A stretch of 36,991 nucleotides of DNA from the NCBI GenBank assembly GCA_003281405.1, contig QCCD01000014.1, positions 1-36,991 on the forward strand. Direction: 5' to 3'. Shown here one piece after another: positions 2,814 to 11,896 of the stretch (the first letter of the stretch is position 1; the number at the start of each line of letters is the position of its first letter). The notes under the pieces were generated by a model. That model worked only from the letters and a program-made list of their open reading frames with translations, was not told the origin of the DNA and searched no databases. Origin of the DNA: Prochlorococcus sp. AG-347-K16. Lineage in GTDB: Bacteria; Cyanobacteriota; Cyanobacteriia; PCC-6307; Cyanobiaceae. A program made the translations under genes and the position numbers.

Positions 2814-3785
2814 ATGAGTATTTTCAAAAAAACTCTCATTTTATCTTCTGCAATTTCATTAATACTTGCTCCATCTGCGATGGCTTCAAAAAGATTGAGT
2901 GGAGCTGGTGCATCATTTCCTTCGAAAATTTATACCAGGTGGTTTTTTGACTTAGCTAAATCTGGAGGCCCTAGAGTTAATTATCAAGCAGTAGGTTCTG
3001 GATCTGGAAGAAAAGCTTTCATAGACGAAACTGTAAATTTTGGTGCATCAGATGATCCTATGAAAGAAGCTGATATAAAAAAAGTTACTAGAGGACTTGT
3101 GCAAATACCGATGGTAGGTGGAACAATTGCGTTTGGATATAACTATGATTGCGACCTGAAACTAACACAAGAACAAGCTGTACAAGTAGCAATGGGAATG
3201 ATAAAAAACTGGAAGGAATTAGGATGTAAGTCAGGTAAATTAACCTGGGCGCATCGTTCCGACGGTTCAGGCACGACTAAAGCTTTTACAAATTCTATGG
3301 AGGCTTTCTCTAAAACTTGGAATTTAGGTACTGGTAAATCTGTTAAATGGCCTTCAGGAGTTGGCGCAAAAGGCAATTCTGGTGTTGCAGGTGTTATTCA
3401 AAACACTCCAGGCGCAATTGGTTATGTAAACCAGTCATACATTAAAGGTAATGTTAAGGCTGCTGCACTTCAAAATCTTTCTGGTGAATTCGTTACCCCT
3501 AATACTGAATCAGGCGCGATAGCTTTGAATGGAATAAATCTTGATGAAAACTTGGCTGGTAAAAATCCGAATCCTACTGCTAAAGGAGCTTATCCAATAG
3601 CAACTTTGACTTGGATACTTGCTTATGAAAAAGGTAACGGAAGAAATACTAAGGCAATTCAAGATACATTCTATAAATTGCTCAGCGATGAATATCAAGA
3701 TAAAGCTCCTGCCTTAGGTTTCGTTCCCTTGAAAGGAGAAATTTTAAAAAAATCAATTGAGGCTGTTGGAAGAATAGGAAGGTAA
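2814..3785 (+). CDS. pstS: Phosphate ABC transporter periplasmic binding protein PstS
   Basis: PstS captures phosphate in the periplasm and hands it to the PstCAB permease, which is not encoded here. Residues 1-24 are a signal peptide (KK start, hydrophobic core, cut probable after SAMA). Phosphate-contacting loops typical of the family are visible: GAGASFP (30-36), GSGSG (61-65), GASDDPM (77-83) and RSDGSGTT (148-155). At 323 aa it is a normal length. It converges on arsJ and their 3' ends overlap by 33 bp. Its upstream region carries two operators like those of arsR, so it is probably induced by arsenic species as well as, or instead of, by PhoB. A single CTTAACCT (2749-2756) resembles half a cyanobacterial Pho box, but no clear tandem repeat follows. 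High-affinity PstS proteins discriminate against arsenate, which fits this context. Confidence 0.95.
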   Translation: MSIFKKTLILSSAISLILAPSAMASKRLSGAGASFPSKIYTRWFFDLAKSGGPRVNYQAVGSGSGRKAFIDETVNFGASDDPMKEADIKKVTRGLVQIPMVGGTIAFGYNYDCDLKLTQEQAVQVAMGMIKNWKELGCKSGKLTWAHRSDGSGTTKAFTNSMEAFSKTWNLGTGKSVKWPSGVGAKGNSGVAGVIQNTPGAIGYVNQSYIKGNVKAAALQNLSGEFVTPNTESGAIALNGINLDENLAGKNPNPTAKGAYPIATLTWILAYEKGNGRNTKAIQDTFYKLLSDEYQDKAPALGFVPLKGEILKKSIEAVGRIGR

Positions 3786-7491: not shown

Positions 7492-7596
7492 TCAGATTAA
7501 ACCCATCGAACCTGCTGTAAATCCTACTGCTAAAAAAAATACGAATTCTGTCAAATCTCTTGGCATAGAATTCATAATGAAACTTAATTGAGTCAT
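7492..7596 (-). CDS. Tiny membrane protein, 34 aa
   Basis: ATG is preceded by AAGG 4 bases upstream. The protein has a polar start (MTQLSFIMNSMPRDLTE) and then one hydrophobic helix FVFFLAVGFTAGSMGLI. The small-residue pattern G-x-x-x-G is typical of packed membrane helices in photosynthetic complexes. It is convergent with apt. I do not recognise the family. Confidence 0.55.
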   Translation of the reverse strand: MTQLSFIMNSMPRDLTEFVFFLAVGFTAGSMGLI

Positions 7597-7802
7597 TTTA
7601 CCTTGTGCTCCTCAGGTTTATTTCCAAAAATATAACTAATTATTTTTTTTGTTGAGGTGATTCAAAGATTTTTTTCTTTTTTCTAAAGATTTCAAATAAT
7701 TGTTGACATATAAATAAATATAAAAAAATTATGTTTTGATAGTATGTTTTCTAACGCTCTATATCCCACTTAAATGCTATAGTTTGCTTATTAATTAAAA
7801 TT

Positions 7803-7970
7803 ATGGATTATAAAAAGAAATCTTTAAGCAGATTAAAAAAAGATGAAAGTTATGAAGAGATAGATACAAGGTTAGCTTCAGGTTGGTACGTAGACGCTTT
7901 AAGCGGTAATAAAAAAAAGAAGTATAAGACTAAAGAGGTGGTATTCAAAATTTCTAAAAAGTCAGAATAG
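7803..7970 (+). CDS. Small basic soluble protein, 55 aa
   Basis: This 55-residue frame is rich in Lys (17) with an acidic patch DESYEEID (14-21) and a central ASGWYVDALSG (25-35). The composition is not that of random AT-rich DNA, because it contains Trp and Tyr and keeps a balanced helix-like pattern. It has no membrane span or signal peptide. It stands alone upstream of the porins. The function is unknown; nucleic-acid or ribosome binding would fit the charge but is a guess. Confidence 0.6.
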   Translation: MDYKKKSLSRLKKDESYEEIDTRLASGWYVDALSGNKKKKYKTKEVVFKISKKSE

Positions 7971-8188
7971 GTTATTTTATCCTTAAAACAAAAAAATCAT
8001 TTCAAGAACAAACTTTAAATTTACTTATATGAATTTCAGAAAGAAAATTCAAACAAATTAAAAATTTTTTGACTTAGAAAAAACTATTGTATAGGTCGAC
8101 AAACTGTCACATATTTTTTAAAAATGTAGCTGTTGCTACTTGATTTCGTATAGGTAAATACACTATCTTAAGGTGTACTTTAAATTTC

Positions 8189-8197
8189 GTGTGAGGA
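8189..8197 (+). promoter_or_regulatory. Yfr1-pairing site over the ribosome site of porin 1
   Basis: GTGTGAGGA is complementary to the conserved TCCTCACAC core of the cyanobacterial small RNA Yfr1. It includes the GAGG Shine-Dalgarno site and ends 5 bases before ATG 8203. In Prochlorococcus, Yfr1 is known to repress som porin mRNAs by pairing at such sites. The same 9-mer precedes the second porin. Confidence 0.75.
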
Positions 8198-8202
8198 AAT
8201 TT

Positions 8203-9339
8203 ATGAAGCTTTTTAAAAGCTTGCTTGTAGCTCCTGCAACATTGGGACTTCTTGCCCCTGTAGCAGCTACAGCAAATGAAGTTACAATCAGTGACTTCAC
8301 CCCTGCAGAACAACTTGCTATTACTAACAGCCGTGTAGACGGTCTAGAAGCAAGACTAAACAACGTTGAAGCTGGTAGTTTCTCAGAAACAACAACTGCT
8401 TCATTCTCAGCTGATTTCGCGATCGGTGCTGTTGATGGAAAAGGTGTAACAACTATAGATACAGATGGAGATGAAACTCTTCAGGCTGTTTACGGTTTCC
8501 AGATTGACTTGAACACAAGTTTTACTGGAGAAGATTCACTTGATATCTCTCTTGATGCTGGTAATGGTGCTACTACTGGCGCACTTGCTGAATTCGACCT
8601 CAATGGTGCAAATGATGCTGGTGGAGATATCTTGGCTGTTGATGGTGTTACATACACTTTCCCACTAGGTTCAGCAACTGCTTTCGTTGGTGATAACACT
8701 GACGGTAGCATGCTATTCACAACAGCTTGTGTTTATGGCGGACCATCTAACACACTTGATGATTGTGCTAATGTAACAGCTGGAATCACAGGTGGTGGAG
8801 TAGCTCTTGGTGCTTCATATGATTTCGATAATGGATTTACAACAGCAGTTGGTGCTCAATTCGTTGAAACTGGTATTGCTACTGTAGGAAATGCCGATTC
8901 TTGGGCAGCAAACCTTGCATATACAACTGATAGCTACGGTGCTTCTGTTACTTACGCAATGGTCGAAGATGGTACTGGTAACGATACATTCACAGCATTA
9001 AACGGTTACTATTCATTTGATAACGGTTTAAACATCAGTGCTGGTTATGAAATCGGTGATCTTGATGGTCATGCAGCAGCAGCTGACGAAACAGAAGCAT
9101 ACTTCGTTGGAATTAATGGTGAAGTTGGACCAGGAGAACTAGGTGCTGCTGTAGGTACTTATGGAAAAATGACTGAATCTGGTGGTGTAATGCCTGAAAG
9201 GTTGATGTATGAAGCATATTATTCATACGCAGTAAATGATGGAATGACAATCACTCCACTTATTTACACTGTTGAAAAAAGCGGCTCTACTGATAAGGAT
9301 GAAACTGGAATCATGGTTAAAACATCATTCAGCTTCTAA
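8203..9339 (+). CDS. som: Outer-membrane porin (Som-like), copy 1
   Basis: The 378-aa product starts at ATG 8203, behind GAGG. An upstream in-frame start at 8173 would only add ten residues before the signal peptide. Residues 1-25 are a signal peptide with cleavage probable after ATA. A short helix (DGLEARLNNVEAG, 46-58) follows, and then a beta-barrel of alternating polar and apolar strands rich in Gly, Asp and Thr, ending in the C-terminal phenylalanine SFSF typical of outer-membrane proteins. Two cysteines (TTACVYGG and DDCAN) could form a loop disulfide. From codon 60 to the terminator it is identical in DNA to copy 2. Only the N-terminal part differs, which may alter periplasmic anchoring. 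An intact SLH domain, usual in larger cyanobacterial porins, is not evident. Confidence 0.88.
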   Translation: MKLFKSLLVAPATLGLLAPVAATANEVTISDFTPAEQLAITNSRVDGLEARLNNVEAGSFSETTTASFSADFAIGAVDGKGVTTIDTDGDETLQAVYGFQIDLNTSFTGEDSLDISLDAGNGATTGALAEFDLNGANDAGGDILAVDGVTYTFPLGSATAFVGDNTDGSMLFTTACVYGGPSNTLDDCANVTAGITGGGVALGASYDFDNGFTTAVGAQFVETGIATVGNADSWAANLAYTTDSYGASVTYAMVEDGTGNDTFTALNGYYSFDNGLNISAGYEIGDLDGHAAAADETEAYFVGINGEVGPGELGAAVGTYGKMTESGGVMPERLMYEAYYSYAVNDGMTITPLIYTVEKSGSTDKDETGIMVKTSFSF

Positions 9340-9401
9340 ATCTAAATTTAATTTAGAAATCTTACACACATTAAAAGACCTGCATTTAGCAGGTCTTTTT
9401 T
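8380..9401. repeat. 1,022-bp perfect direct repeat, copy 1
   Basis: It is identical to 9713-10734 at a constant offset of 1,333 bp, with no indel, from the barrel-coding region through the stop codon and the terminator. Identity at silent sites and in the terminator points to very recent duplication or gene conversion. Confidence 0.9.
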
Positions 9402-9402
9402 T
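9373..9402 (+). terminator. Terminator of porin 1
   Basis: AAAAGACCTGC and GCAGGTCTTTT pair around ATTTA, and the T-run extends to 9402. It is identical to the terminator of porin 2, so the two porin genes are probably separate transcripts. Confidence 0.9.
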
Positions 9403-9478
9403 ATTTGGACAACTTTTTTTTTGTCTACCGTGACTTGTTATTAAAGATTATTTAAACTAACTTATGATTACCTATATT

Positions 9479-9487
9479 GTGTGAGGA
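9479..9487 (+). promoter_or_regulatory. Yfr1-pairing site over the ribosome site of porin 2
   Basis: GTGTGAGGA, the same 9-mer as at 8189-8197, lies outside the identical repeat and ends 6 bases before ATG 9494. Its conservation in otherwise diverged leaders supports function. By the known rule for som mRNAs, Yfr1 should repress translation here. Confidence 0.75.
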
Positions 9488-9493
9488 CACTTT

Positions 9494-10672
9494 ATGAAGC
9501 TTTTCCAACGTTTGTTGATAGCTCCAGCTGCTCTAGGATTAATATCACCTTTAGCGGCAAATGCTACTGAGGTAAATCTCAATGAGATTGAAAATTACTC
9601 AAATTCAGAGAGTATTGAATTTGTTAACTCTTTTAATGATAACGATTTAAATAAGACTCCTTTACTAGCAGGAGGTGAAGGATTAGTTGATACAGATAGC
9701 TATGACGGTGGCTTCTCAGAAACAACAACTGCTTCATTCTCAGCTGATTTCGCGATCGGTGCTGTTGATGGAAAAGGTGTAACAACTATAGATACAGATG
9801 GAGATGAAACTCTTCAGGCTGTTTACGGTTTCCAGATTGACTTGAACACAAGTTTTACTGGAGAAGATTCACTTGATATCTCTCTTGATGCTGGTAATGG
9901 TGCTACTACTGGCGCACTTGCTGAATTCGACCTCAATGGTGCAAATGATGCTGGTGGAGATATCTTGGCTGTTGATGGTGTTACATACACTTTCCCACTA
10001 GGTTCAGCAACTGCTTTCGTTGGTGATAACACTGACGGTAGCATGCTATTCACAACAGCTTGTGTTTATGGCGGACCATCTAACACACTTGATGATTGTG
10101 CTAATGTAACAGCTGGAATCACAGGTGGTGGAGTAGCTCTTGGTGCTTCATATGATTTCGATAATGGATTTACAACAGCAGTTGGTGCTCAATTCGTTGA
10201 AACTGGTATTGCTACTGTAGGAAATGCCGATTCTTGGGCAGCAAACCTTGCATATACAACTGATAGCTACGGTGCTTCTGTTACTTACGCAATGGTCGAA
10301 GATGGTACTGGTAACGATACATTCACAGCATTAAACGGTTACTATTCATTTGATAACGGTTTAAACATCAGTGCTGGTTATGAAATCGGTGATCTTGATG
10401 GTCATGCAGCAGCAGCTGACGAAACAGAAGCATACTTCGTTGGAATTAATGGTGAAGTTGGACCAGGAGAACTAGGTGCTGCTGTAGGTACTTATGGAAA
10501 AATGACTGAATCTGGTGGTGTAATGCCTGAAAGGTTGATGTATGAAGCATATTATTCATACGCAGTAAATGATGGAATGACAATCACTCCACTTATTTAC
10601 ACTGTTGAAAAAAGCGGCTCTACTGATAAGGATGAAACTGGAATCATGGTTAAAACATCATTCAGCTTCTAA
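9494..10672 (+). CDS. som: Outer-membrane porin (Som-like), copy 2
   Basis: The 392-aa product has a signal peptide (1-24, MKLFQRLLIAPAALG start, cut near ANA). A distinct N-terminal segment of about 50 residues (25-74) is rich in Asn, Ser and Asp and contains PLLAGGEGLVD. Residues 74-392 are identical to the barrel of copy 1. The N-terminal segment is the one I associate with typical Prochlorococcus Som proteins. Copy 1, with a different N-terminus, may therefore have received its barrel from this gene. The gene has its own leader and terminator, and no other gene lies between the porins. Nutrient or ion diffusion across the outer membrane is the expected role. Confidence 0.9.
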   Translation: MKLFQRLLIAPAALGLISPLAANATEVNLNEIENYSNSESIEFVNSFNDNDLNKTPLLAGGEGLVDTDSYDGGFSETTTASFSADFAIGAVDGKGVTTIDTDGDETLQAVYGFQIDLNTSFTGEDSLDISLDAGNGATTGALAEFDLNGANDAGGDILAVDGVTYTFPLGSATAFVGDNTDGSMLFTTACVYGGPSNTLDDCANVTAGITGGGVALGASYDFDNGFTTAVGAQFVETGIATVGNADSWAANLAYTTDSYGASVTYAMVEDGTGNDTFTALNGYYSFDNGLNISAGYEIGDLDGHAAAADETEAYFVGINGEVGPGELGAAVGTYGKMTESGGVMPERLMYEAYYSYAVNDGMTITPLIYTVEKSGSTDKDETGIMVKTSFSF

Positions 10673-10734
10673 ATCTAAATTTAATTTAGAAATCTTACAC
10701 ACATTAAAAGACCTGCATTTAGCAGGTCTTTTTT
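9713..10734. repeat. 1,022-bp perfect direct repeat, copy 2
   Basis: This is the partner of 8380-9401. The match starts inside the coding region at the F-S-E-T-T-T codons and ends within the terminator T-run, which has six T here against seven in copy 1. Confidence 0.9.
10706..10734 (+). terminator. Terminator of porin 2
   Basis: Same hairpin as at 9373-9402, an 11-bp stem around ATTTA followed by a T-run. Confidence 0.9.
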
Positions 10735-10845
10735 AGTTTTATATTATAAGAAAAATTTGGCTAGATAGTTTTTGAAATTAAAAATAGTTGAAGCTTGAAA
10801 CTAAAAAGTATTTATTATTAAATTAAACCTAACTTTGGAGGTATA

Positions 10846-10977
10846 GTGACTCCCATATTTAAATGTTTAATTTGTCGTAAAGATATAGAAAGGTCAACTA
10901 AAACATTCTGGAAAAAGAAAGGACATTTATTATGTTCTTCATGTTTAGATAGTATCGAAAAAAAATCAATTAAATAG
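10846..10977 (+). CDS. Mini zinc-ribbon protein, 43 aa
   Basis: A GTG start is preceded by a perfect GGAGG (10837-10841) 4 bases upstream, among the strongest ribosome sites in the window. The protein has two knuckles, C-L-I-C (7-10) and C-S-S-C (30-33), 19 residues apart, with basic residues between them. This is a minimal four-cysteine metal-binding fold. It is probably a nucleic-acid or protein adaptor. I know no named family. It stands alone between the porins and the small hli. Confidence 0.7.
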   Translation: MTPIFKCLICRKDIERSTKTFWKKKGHLLCSSCLDSIEKKSIK

Positions 10978-11203
10978 ATTTTTTGAAATACATAAATATA
11001 AAATTATTTAATAAGAATAACTTTTTCTGGATTTGAGTAATTTAGTTTGGAAACTCAAGAAATTATTAAAAAATAAAAATATTATTTATCATCAAGGTTA
11101 AAATCTCATCATAATTTTGTAGTTTTACTAGCTATTAAACTATAGATTTTTATTAAGTGAATGTAGATTTTATAAAATTTAATTGGACGATTTTATTGAT
11201 AAT

Positions 11204-11242
11204 AAAAAAAAAGTGAGAGACCTAAAATTTAGGAACTCTCAC
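11204..11242 (-). terminator. Terminator of the 35-aa hli gene
   Basis: GTGAGAG (11213-11219) and CTCTCAC (11236-11242) enclose CCTAAAATTTAGG, itself self-complementary. The minus-strand transcript ends with nine U from the A-run at 11204-11212. Confidence 0.9.
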
Positions 11243-11268
11243 GCTAATTACTTAAAATCTTGTTTGGT

Positions 11269-11376
11269 TTAGAACCAACCTGGAATGATTTGCCCAGTTG
11301 TTACATAAGCACCAACAGCTGCAACAAAACCCAACATTGCTGCCCAACCATTAAAACGTTCTGCTTCAGGAGTCAT
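11269..11376 (-). CDS. hli: Minimal high-light-inducible protein, 35 aa
   Basis: The 35 residues run from MTPEAERFNGWAAMLGFVAA to TTGQIIPGWF, essentially one chlorophyll-binding helix with almost no tail. W replaces R in the usual N-G-R motif, a variant known among the shortest Prochlorococcus Hli proteins. It is monocistronic, with its own promoter and strong terminator. It probably works by pairing with other Hli proteins or with photosystem subunits in the thylakoid. It lies outside the tRNA-Pro island and is probably a core hli. Confidence 0.93.
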   Translation of the reverse strand: MTPEAERFNGWAAMLGFVAAVGAYVTTGQIIPGWF

Positions 11377-11403
11377 AATAATAAAAAGTAATTTATGTAA
11401 ACT

Positions 11404-11433
11404 ATTGTAACAGGTATTGTGAAGCTTTGTAAA
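11404..11433 (-). promoter_or_regulatory. Probable sigma-70-type promoter of the 35-aa hli
   Basis: On the minus strand TTTACA (rc of 11428-11433) is followed after 18 bases by TACAAT (rc of 11404-11409). Each box matches its consensus at five of six bases. The start codon is 27 bases after the -10 box, implying a leader of about 20 bases. Confidence 0.5.
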
Positions 11434-11896
11434 GTATTTTTGGAAAATTGCTGTTTGGTCTAGATTTGATTATTTTGGATATCACTGATGTCACAAAAAT
11501 GGTTCATTTTTGCATGTAGTTGCATATTTTCAAATCAATTAAAGCTTGCGATTAAATTAATTATTAATTAAATTTTGCAAGTTTTATTAATTAAAGCTTG
11601 GAAATATTTGATTTAAATTTTTACAGATTTTGGAATTTCTGAACAATCTTGAATTATACAAATTTTTGTTCTAATTAATTTTTATATATTTGTATTATTG
11701 ATTTTAGTTTATACATAATGATTTTCGTTATTTCCTTTTAAGTAATAAAAGATTTCTTATGCTGTAAAAAGTAATTTTAGAAAAAGATTATTACTAAATA
11801 TCTGTAAATGAAATTATAAAAGAGGTTAGATTGGTTGAAGTTTATATTTCTTTAATTAATGAGATTCTAAATATTGGACTCAATCATAAGTAAATG
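11434..11896. other. Long AT-rich intergenic stretch
   Basis: No gene is supported in these 463 bases. A short repeat, AATTAAAGCTTG, occurs at about 11538-11549 and 11589-11600 with TTAATTAA runs between. I see no hairpin with a U-run and no RNA family I recognise. Confidence 0.4.

Follow-up and report, generated by a model that had tools for sequence, protein, structure and literature searches.

The stretch of DNA considered here (the window, 36,991 nucleotides) is contig 14, QCCD01000014.1, of Prochlorococcus sp. AG-347-K16, a genome assembled to 1.57 Mb in 37 contigs and 95.7% complete. Prochlorococcus is a photosynthetic microbe that abounds in the ocean. The window carries two genes for som-type porins of Prochlorococcus, A and B, which are arranged head to tail on the same strand (Table 1). 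The identical unit of the two genes comprises the barrel, the stop codon and the terminator, and the beginnings of the genes differ. The coordinates of A are counted from its MKLF start; the list of open reading frames has A begin at an upstream GTG, at 8173.

Table 1. Features of the tandem porin locus, with the related fusion found in other genomes
Feature	Position	Strand	Basis and remarks
Porin A, som-type, 378 aa	8203..9339	+	MKLF start; NCBIfam por_somb 54.5 bits (below the 100-bit cut-off); 16-strand model
Porin B, som-type, 392 aa	9494..10672	+	MKLF start; NCBIfam por_somb 33.6 bits (below the cut-off); 16-strand model
A-type N-terminus: signal peptide (by eye) and short helix stretch NSRVDGLEARLNN	8203..8379	+	alignment; A side of the branch, support 100
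B-type N-terminus: signal peptide (by eye) and EVNLNEI...LLAGGEGLVD stretch	9494..9712	+	alignment; N-terminal tree
Identical block, copy 1: whole barrel, stop codon and terminator	8380..9401	+	exact match; first barrel strand at residue 63
Identical block, copy 2: whole barrel, stop codon and terminator	9713..10734	+	exact match; first barrel strand at residue 77
Terminator hairpin of A, within the identical block	9373..9399	+	stem coordinates and folding
Terminator hairpin of B, within the identical block	10706..10732	+	stem coordinates
GTGTGAGG, complementary to the Yfr1 core	8189..8196	+	begins 14 nt upstream of the A start codon (ATG)
GTGTGAGG, complementary to the Yfr1 core	9479..9486	+	begins 15 nt upstream of the B start codon (ATG)
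Fusion of a B-type N-terminus with a distant barrel	L066:1511-2755; second gene of L071 and L092		34-38% residue identity to the A barrel

The maximal exact match between the two copies is 1,022 bases long at an offset of 1,333, far beyond what chance would give. In the proteins it sets in at residue 60 (A) or 74 (B), and it ends in the run of T past the terminator hairpin, the first of which folds at -16.1 kcal/mol (z -6.6). Upstream, the N-terminal DNA of A and B is 60% identical over the aligned bases. A sequence-only reading of the window had claimed this identity of barrel and terminator, and the exact match bears it out. It had also held that leader, signal peptide and the first 50 mature residues differ in both genes; the difference is real, while its length comes to about 34 residues (A) and 48 (B), if the signal peptide is taken, by eye, as about 25 residues. 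The same genome holds two copies of the block DNA and no others, and one more porin, distant in sequence (33% identity), lies on a different contig.

Is this likeness peculiar to one strain? A relative of A is present in 186/200 genomes of the genus. From a list ranked by similarity to A, 60 regions were chosen by hand, taking visible pairs, then few-contig genomes, then single matches; being the best part of a longer ranking and not a random sample, they do not give the share of homogenised pairs in the genus. With the window this makes 61 loci: 42 with an A-B pair (one with a third porin), 3 with two A genes, 14 with A only, and 2 whose first gene is unclassified (L040, L050). The pair at L068 is truncated by the fetched region and was omitted from the trees, which hold 41 pairs. 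A scan of named genomes then gave 78 loci from the best 80 of 172 (titled Prochlorococcus, apart from two titled Synechococcaceae), of which 75 were parsed (all except L112, L121 and L138); 28 of its 45 pairs belonged to the first set and were not recounted, so that 17 new ones bring the total to 59 A-B pairs, all with distinct A proteins.

In all 59 pairs A lies upstream of B. The labels come from N-terminal motifs and match the gene position in 42/45 two-gene loci with both N-termini read, the remaining 3 being the A-A loci. Within the set of 42, the spacers between A and B are either 140-172 bp or 2.03-2.12 kb long, and the four long ones that were read (L062, L065, L067, L083) hold a related gene, TPR-like and sulfotransferase-like by eye. 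Two loci carry variants of the arrangement: at L056:4435-5631 a third tandem porin with a different N-terminus stands behind the A-B pair, and the second porin of L050 has a hybrid-like N-terminus, whose A-type start (EVTINDFNP) runs into the B-type LLAGGEGLVD stretch.

As the sequence-only reading had proposed, the barrels were compared with those of other strains, and the identity of A and B barrels recurs in many genomes. Barrel DNA is at least 99% identical in 47/59 pairs and exactly identical in 30/59: 33 and 23 of the 42 pairs in the first set, where the N-terminal DNA is 51-74% identical, and 14 and 7 of the 17 new ones. Among six single-contig genomes with a pair, four stand at or above 99.3%, with 978/978 bases identical in G171, 888/888 in G109 (with a 2 kb spacer), 903/909 in G015 and, over the fetched part, 742/744 in G041. 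G015 is taken here to be Prochlorococcus MED4; its A-B pair, at L067, would then be PMM1121 and, presumably, PMM1119.

Comparison between genomes gives these numbers their meaning. Over the 41 pairs, two barrels of one genome share a median of 100% of their residues, and barrels of different genomes 48-51%; for the N-termini the median is 45% within a genome, as against 81% (A-A) and 60% (B-B) between genomes. On the N-terminal tree of 82 rows, 41 A and 41 B sequences are parted by one branch with support 100, a split that is partly built in by the motif-based labels, and on the barrel tree the A and B of the same genome are sisters in 34/41 cases. In the comparison with G157, the nearest relative among those found, 74/74 differing barrel sites are common to the A and B of each genome, and the same holds for G127 (133/133), G190 (142/142) and G171 (153/153). 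Silent sites follow the same rule: the 32 equal-length pairs at or above 99% show 23 differences in 29,649 nt within genomes, and the silent divergence of the barrel to the nearest genome is 0.14. Selection at the protein level alone is therefore insufficient to explain the pattern.

These data are very probably to be read as concerted evolution, in which barrel and terminator undergo recurrent gene conversion that ends where homology ends. The sequence-only reading had named conversion that homogenised the barrels and spared the N-termini, and this stands; its single recent event gives way to a process recurring in many strains. The sequences suggest the following course. A and B would be paralogous som porins of long standing, both having a leader, a signal peptide and a short N-terminus of their own, and homologous recombination (gene conversion of the RecA type, presumably dependent on RecA) would act between the two direct repeats. 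Conversion would run until the copies cease to be alike, at the N-terminus upstream and at the flank downstream; since it stops where homology stops, the boundary would maintain itself. Selection would retain both N-termini, and a barrel variant, mostly changed in the outer loops, would be carried to both copies soon after its origin.

Several traces are consistent with this course. The upstream limit of identity lies 0-8 nt ahead of the FSETT-type codon in the 33 homogenised pairs of the first set, and identity runs past the stop codon for 47-93 nt in 30/33 of them, for 30 nt in L049 and for 4 nt in L067, the tail of L068 being outside the data. In the three A-A loci (L047, L053, L063) near-identity spans the N-terminus as well and stops 4-15 nt before the ATG. 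Pairs with the 2 kb spacer are homogenised too. L055 and L058, whose barrels are not homogenised, hold identical runs of 131 and 156 nt beside differing parts, which are possible partial tracts; random placement reached such lengths in 1 and 0 of 2000 trials, under a control that ignores conserved stretches. At 5 of the 14 A-only loci, the sequence beyond the terminator of A becomes, within 8 nt, the flank seen behind B at other loci; at 6 others a match to the B flank sets in only at a greater distance, one locus is too short, and two show no match. The five could be deletion-like products such as a crossover deletion would leave, and some of them could come from assembly collapse. A search for the B-type N-terminus found none in G170 (5 contigs; one of the five) or in G050 (1 contig; B flank further in), where it gave 27-34 bits to other porins, as against 70-138 bits in four pair-bearing genomes. 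At two further A-only loci, L060 (G105) and L075 (G010), a B-like N-terminus lies at a contig end or elsewhere. The idea of a site-specific switch was rejected, as no inverted repeats of at least 30 bases occur in 7500-11500 and the gene order is the same in 59/59 pairs.

A number of points weigh against concerted evolution of this kind. Twelve of the 59 pairs are not homogenised: the barrels are 68-93% alike in seven (L043, L044, L046, L055, L058, L111, L134) and 57-59% alike in two (L061, L150), and in three (L066, L071, L092) the B N-terminus is joined to a distant barrel, at 47.7-48.8% DNA and 34-38% residue identity to the A barrel. Single-contig genomes are among the exceptions, since 2 of the 6 are unmatched (G182 at 72.9% and G022 at 47.7% barrel identity), and A and B are not sisters on the barrel tree in 7/41 pairs. 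The assemblies are mostly fragmented and many are from single cells, and assemblers can erase single differences or collapse repeats. Recombination itself is read indirectly, from the sequences. Lastly, and as a point against the weight given here to the outer loops, in a coastal Synechococcus porin homologous to SomA/B, a passage of PMC3170327 places the raised ratio of nonsynonymous to synonymous divergence (dN/dS) at the N-terminus and not in the barrel. As for the unmatched pairs, a natural reading is that a barrel too different to recombine may stop conversion.

Could the identity instead stem from assembly, either because a single gene was entered twice or because two non-identical barrels were made into one? 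Most genomes are fragmented, and in 10 of 14 chosen genomes a contig ends inside an A-type porin gene (L215, L217, L218, L220, L221, L222, L224, L225, L227, L228). Such breaks are what a near-identical second copy would cause, so that the copy number of the porins is probably undercounted; what is observed in this set is the break, and no overlap between contig ends of one genome was found in the 5 end pairs examined. An artefact is nevertheless very improbable, because flanks and N-termini differ between the copies, because the single-contig genomes G171, G109 and G015 show the same pattern, and because it would not maintain two N-terminal lineages over 41 genomes. The doubt of this kind voiced in the sequence-only reading thus fails for the pattern overall, which is a statement on the pattern and not on this strain. 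An equally slim chance is left to birth and death, that is, a recent and independent duplication of the porin in each strain. It would account for within-genome identity near 100%, and A-A loci do exist; on the other hand, the N-termini form two lineages that span all 41 genomes of the tree, the gene order is invariant, the spacers fall into two classes and the four long spacers read hold a related gene. Purifying selection alone is hardly credible as what holds the barrels alike: barrel dN/dS is below 1 (0.36-0.49, window against four genomes), yet silent sites are near-identical within genomes, as counted above, with synonymous divergence (dS) of 0.14-0.35 between the window and the same four. 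Neither an error of assembly nor a single recent event accounts for the match within a genome.

What conversion is good for is a separate matter. It may be a neutral by-product of close direct repeats, the matched barrels bringing no advantage and the N-termini or the dosage alone being selected; we give this a little less than an even chance. Nothing beyond homologous recombination would be required, and some strains seem to have lost B or escaped conversion; against it, pairs persist widely though such repeats should delete readily, a persistence that selection on dosage or on the N-termini would explain too. Another possibility, held tentatively, is that selection maintains one pore in two forms that differ in anchoring, A with the helix and B without it. 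The N-termini are conserved (pairwise identity of A 0.83; dN/dS 0.05-0.16 for A and 0.14-0.23 for B in four comparisons) and keep distinct motifs, and in porins of two other genera, L234 and L237, the part that links the same N-terminal start to the barrel is roughly 70 residues longer than in A and B. Against this possibility, a Pfam scan of 55 A and 44 B proteins gave no anchoring domain, and both N-termini are modelled by AlphaFold with a predicted local distance difference test (pLDDT) score below 50 (residues 1-60 of A and 1-74 of B). It would account for distinct N-termini and not for identical barrels, and as a reason for the retention of both N-termini it is plausible.

Related to this question is the origin of the N-termini. 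An SLH domain at the N-terminus is typical of SomA/SomB porins. The extra stretch in the porins of other genera resembles, by eye, an SLH domain followed by a coiled coil, and Pfam does not call it. These porins align with B over roughly residues 1-49 and once more from 68-71 on; the two parts are about 90 residues apart in them and about 20 apart in B. A and B thus seem to derive from a longer N-terminus cut down in two different ways, A having kept a helix stub and B the first stretch and then LLAGGEGLVD. The two N-termini may serve in anchoring, in the assembly of trimers or in folding. The Pfam SLH model matched none of the 55 A and 44 B proteins and none of 61 genomes of the genus, a negative that the model may owe to missing the domain here; it matched 4/14 control genomes, including Synechococcus elongatus. 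A loss of SLH throughout the genus, suggested by the 0/61 count, was considered and dropped, since Pfam misses SLH also in the longer relatives L233, L234 and L237. Against NCBIfam NF033921 (100-bit cut-off), A, B and the A protein of MED4 (61.5 bits) all stay below; of three longer relatives from other genera, two pass, at 144 and 115 bits, and the third reaches 87 bits.

Beyond the N-terminus, both proteins are modelled as outer-membrane barrels of 16 strands. Foldseek ranks solved structures of bacterial porins first (E 1.6e-11, TM-score about 0.56 relative to the query), and a search for this fold among viral proteins turned up porin-like barrels in phage records (best E 4e-12), here read as generic. 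With the membrane sides assigned from the model, the N-terminus being placed in the periplasm, mean pairwise identity among 55 A proteins falls from 0.83 in the N-terminus to 0.71 in the periplasmic turns, 0.59 in the strands and 0.38 in the extracellular loops. The comparison with G157 shows the same gradation: 28/121 loop, 10/171 strand, 0/27 turn and 2/59 N-terminal residues differ, and the loops exceed the remaining barrel (Fisher p 3e-6). This excess and the barrel dN/dS would fit relaxed or diversifying selection on the outer side. In three of the four comparisons the barrel silent divergence (0.26-0.35) is lower than that of the B N-terminus (0.62-0.92, over about 50 silent sites), which would mean either that barrels also pass between strains or that their silent sites are constrained.

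All of this invites a broader, and rather doubtful, conjecture: a system of constant sockets and a variable barrel, in which N-terminus and leader would be fixed cassettes serving as docking and control ends, and the barrel a fast-changing surface cassette. New barrels would be generated through mutation of the loops or acquired from other strains or paralogues, and conversion would copy them into both sockets. If true, such a system would change the whole surface pore at once, for example removing a phage or grazer site that an unmatched copy would expose. If the outer loops change fast and in both copies together, the pair would be a natural test of what shapes the cyanobacterial surface, be it phages, grazers or nutrients. 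There is also a practical side, in that barrel peptides or short reads cannot separate A from B in most of the strains examined.

The control end deserves a closer look. Both leaders carry a predicted target of the small RNA Yfr1 before the start codon: GTGTGAGG, which in the window occurs at A and B and nowhere else, stands 13-18 nt before the ATG (within the 40 nt searched) in 60/62 A and 44/44 B genes. The genome of the window has a Yfr1 gene (58 bits, gathering threshold 38) and Yfr10 as well. At L094, Yfr10 adjoins a Cyano-1 RNA that opens with a near copy of GTGTGAGG. A promoter scan gave 8 hits, 9.3 being expected. The link between Yfr1 and porins is said to have been first reported by Richter et al. 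in 2010. For MED4, a passage of PMC6778093 has Yfr1 repressing the PMM1121 leader 4.7-fold in reporters in E. coli, and one of PMC3142192 terms both PMM1119 and PMM1121 validated Yfr1 targets. Both MED4 porins are termed highly expressed and inducible by phosphorus limitation in part of PMC3898218, and vesicles of Prochlorococcus contain porins such as Som, according to a passage of PMC9298688. In the window, a gene for a PstS-like phosphate-binding protein (by eye) lies at 2814-3785, 4.4 kb upstream of the porins.

As for what was known before, the kind of process has precedents and the duplication of the porins has been described, and we found no description of conversion or concerted evolution of Prochlorococcus porins in searches of the open-licence literature. 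PMC3349580 makes no mention of porin, som, PMM1119 or PMM1121, and PMC11753881 none of porin, PMM1119 or PMM1121. The MED4 pair arose by duplication, as the passages of PMC6778093 that deal with it have it, conversion being unmentioned in them. MED4 Yfr21 is placed at 1069553-1069757, beside PMM1121, in a part of PMC2518516; gene A of G015, at 1068277-1069407, is next to this position, which supports that G015 is MED4 and its A, then, PMM1121. The MED4 pair and that of the window are alike in gene order and in the Yfr1 site; they differ in that 2 kb separate the MED4 genes, whose barrels differ at 6 of 909 nt, and the window pair has identical barrels and a short spacer. With the SomA/SomB porins (NF033921), A and B appear from the models to share the 16-strand barrel, whereas they match the family below its cut-off and are without the stretch of roughly 70 residues. 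Among neighbouring porin genes, Brucella omp2a/omp2b undergo gene conversion and are 82-100% identical depending on the species, as a passage of PMC7050475 states. Those genes are in opposite orientation, only omp2b has been shown to be expressed and conversion is segmental; here the genes are direct repeats, with mostly whole-barrel identity and distinct N-termini. A further precedent is Helicobacter pylori, where the likeness of babA to babB and of homA to homB is put down to concerted evolution by gene conversion in a passage of PMC3960876. Those genes encode adhesin-type proteins at loci A and B, whereas here tandem porins of a free-living marine genus are concerned, and, unlike in babA/babB and homA/homB, the conversion boundary lies at the start of the barrel.

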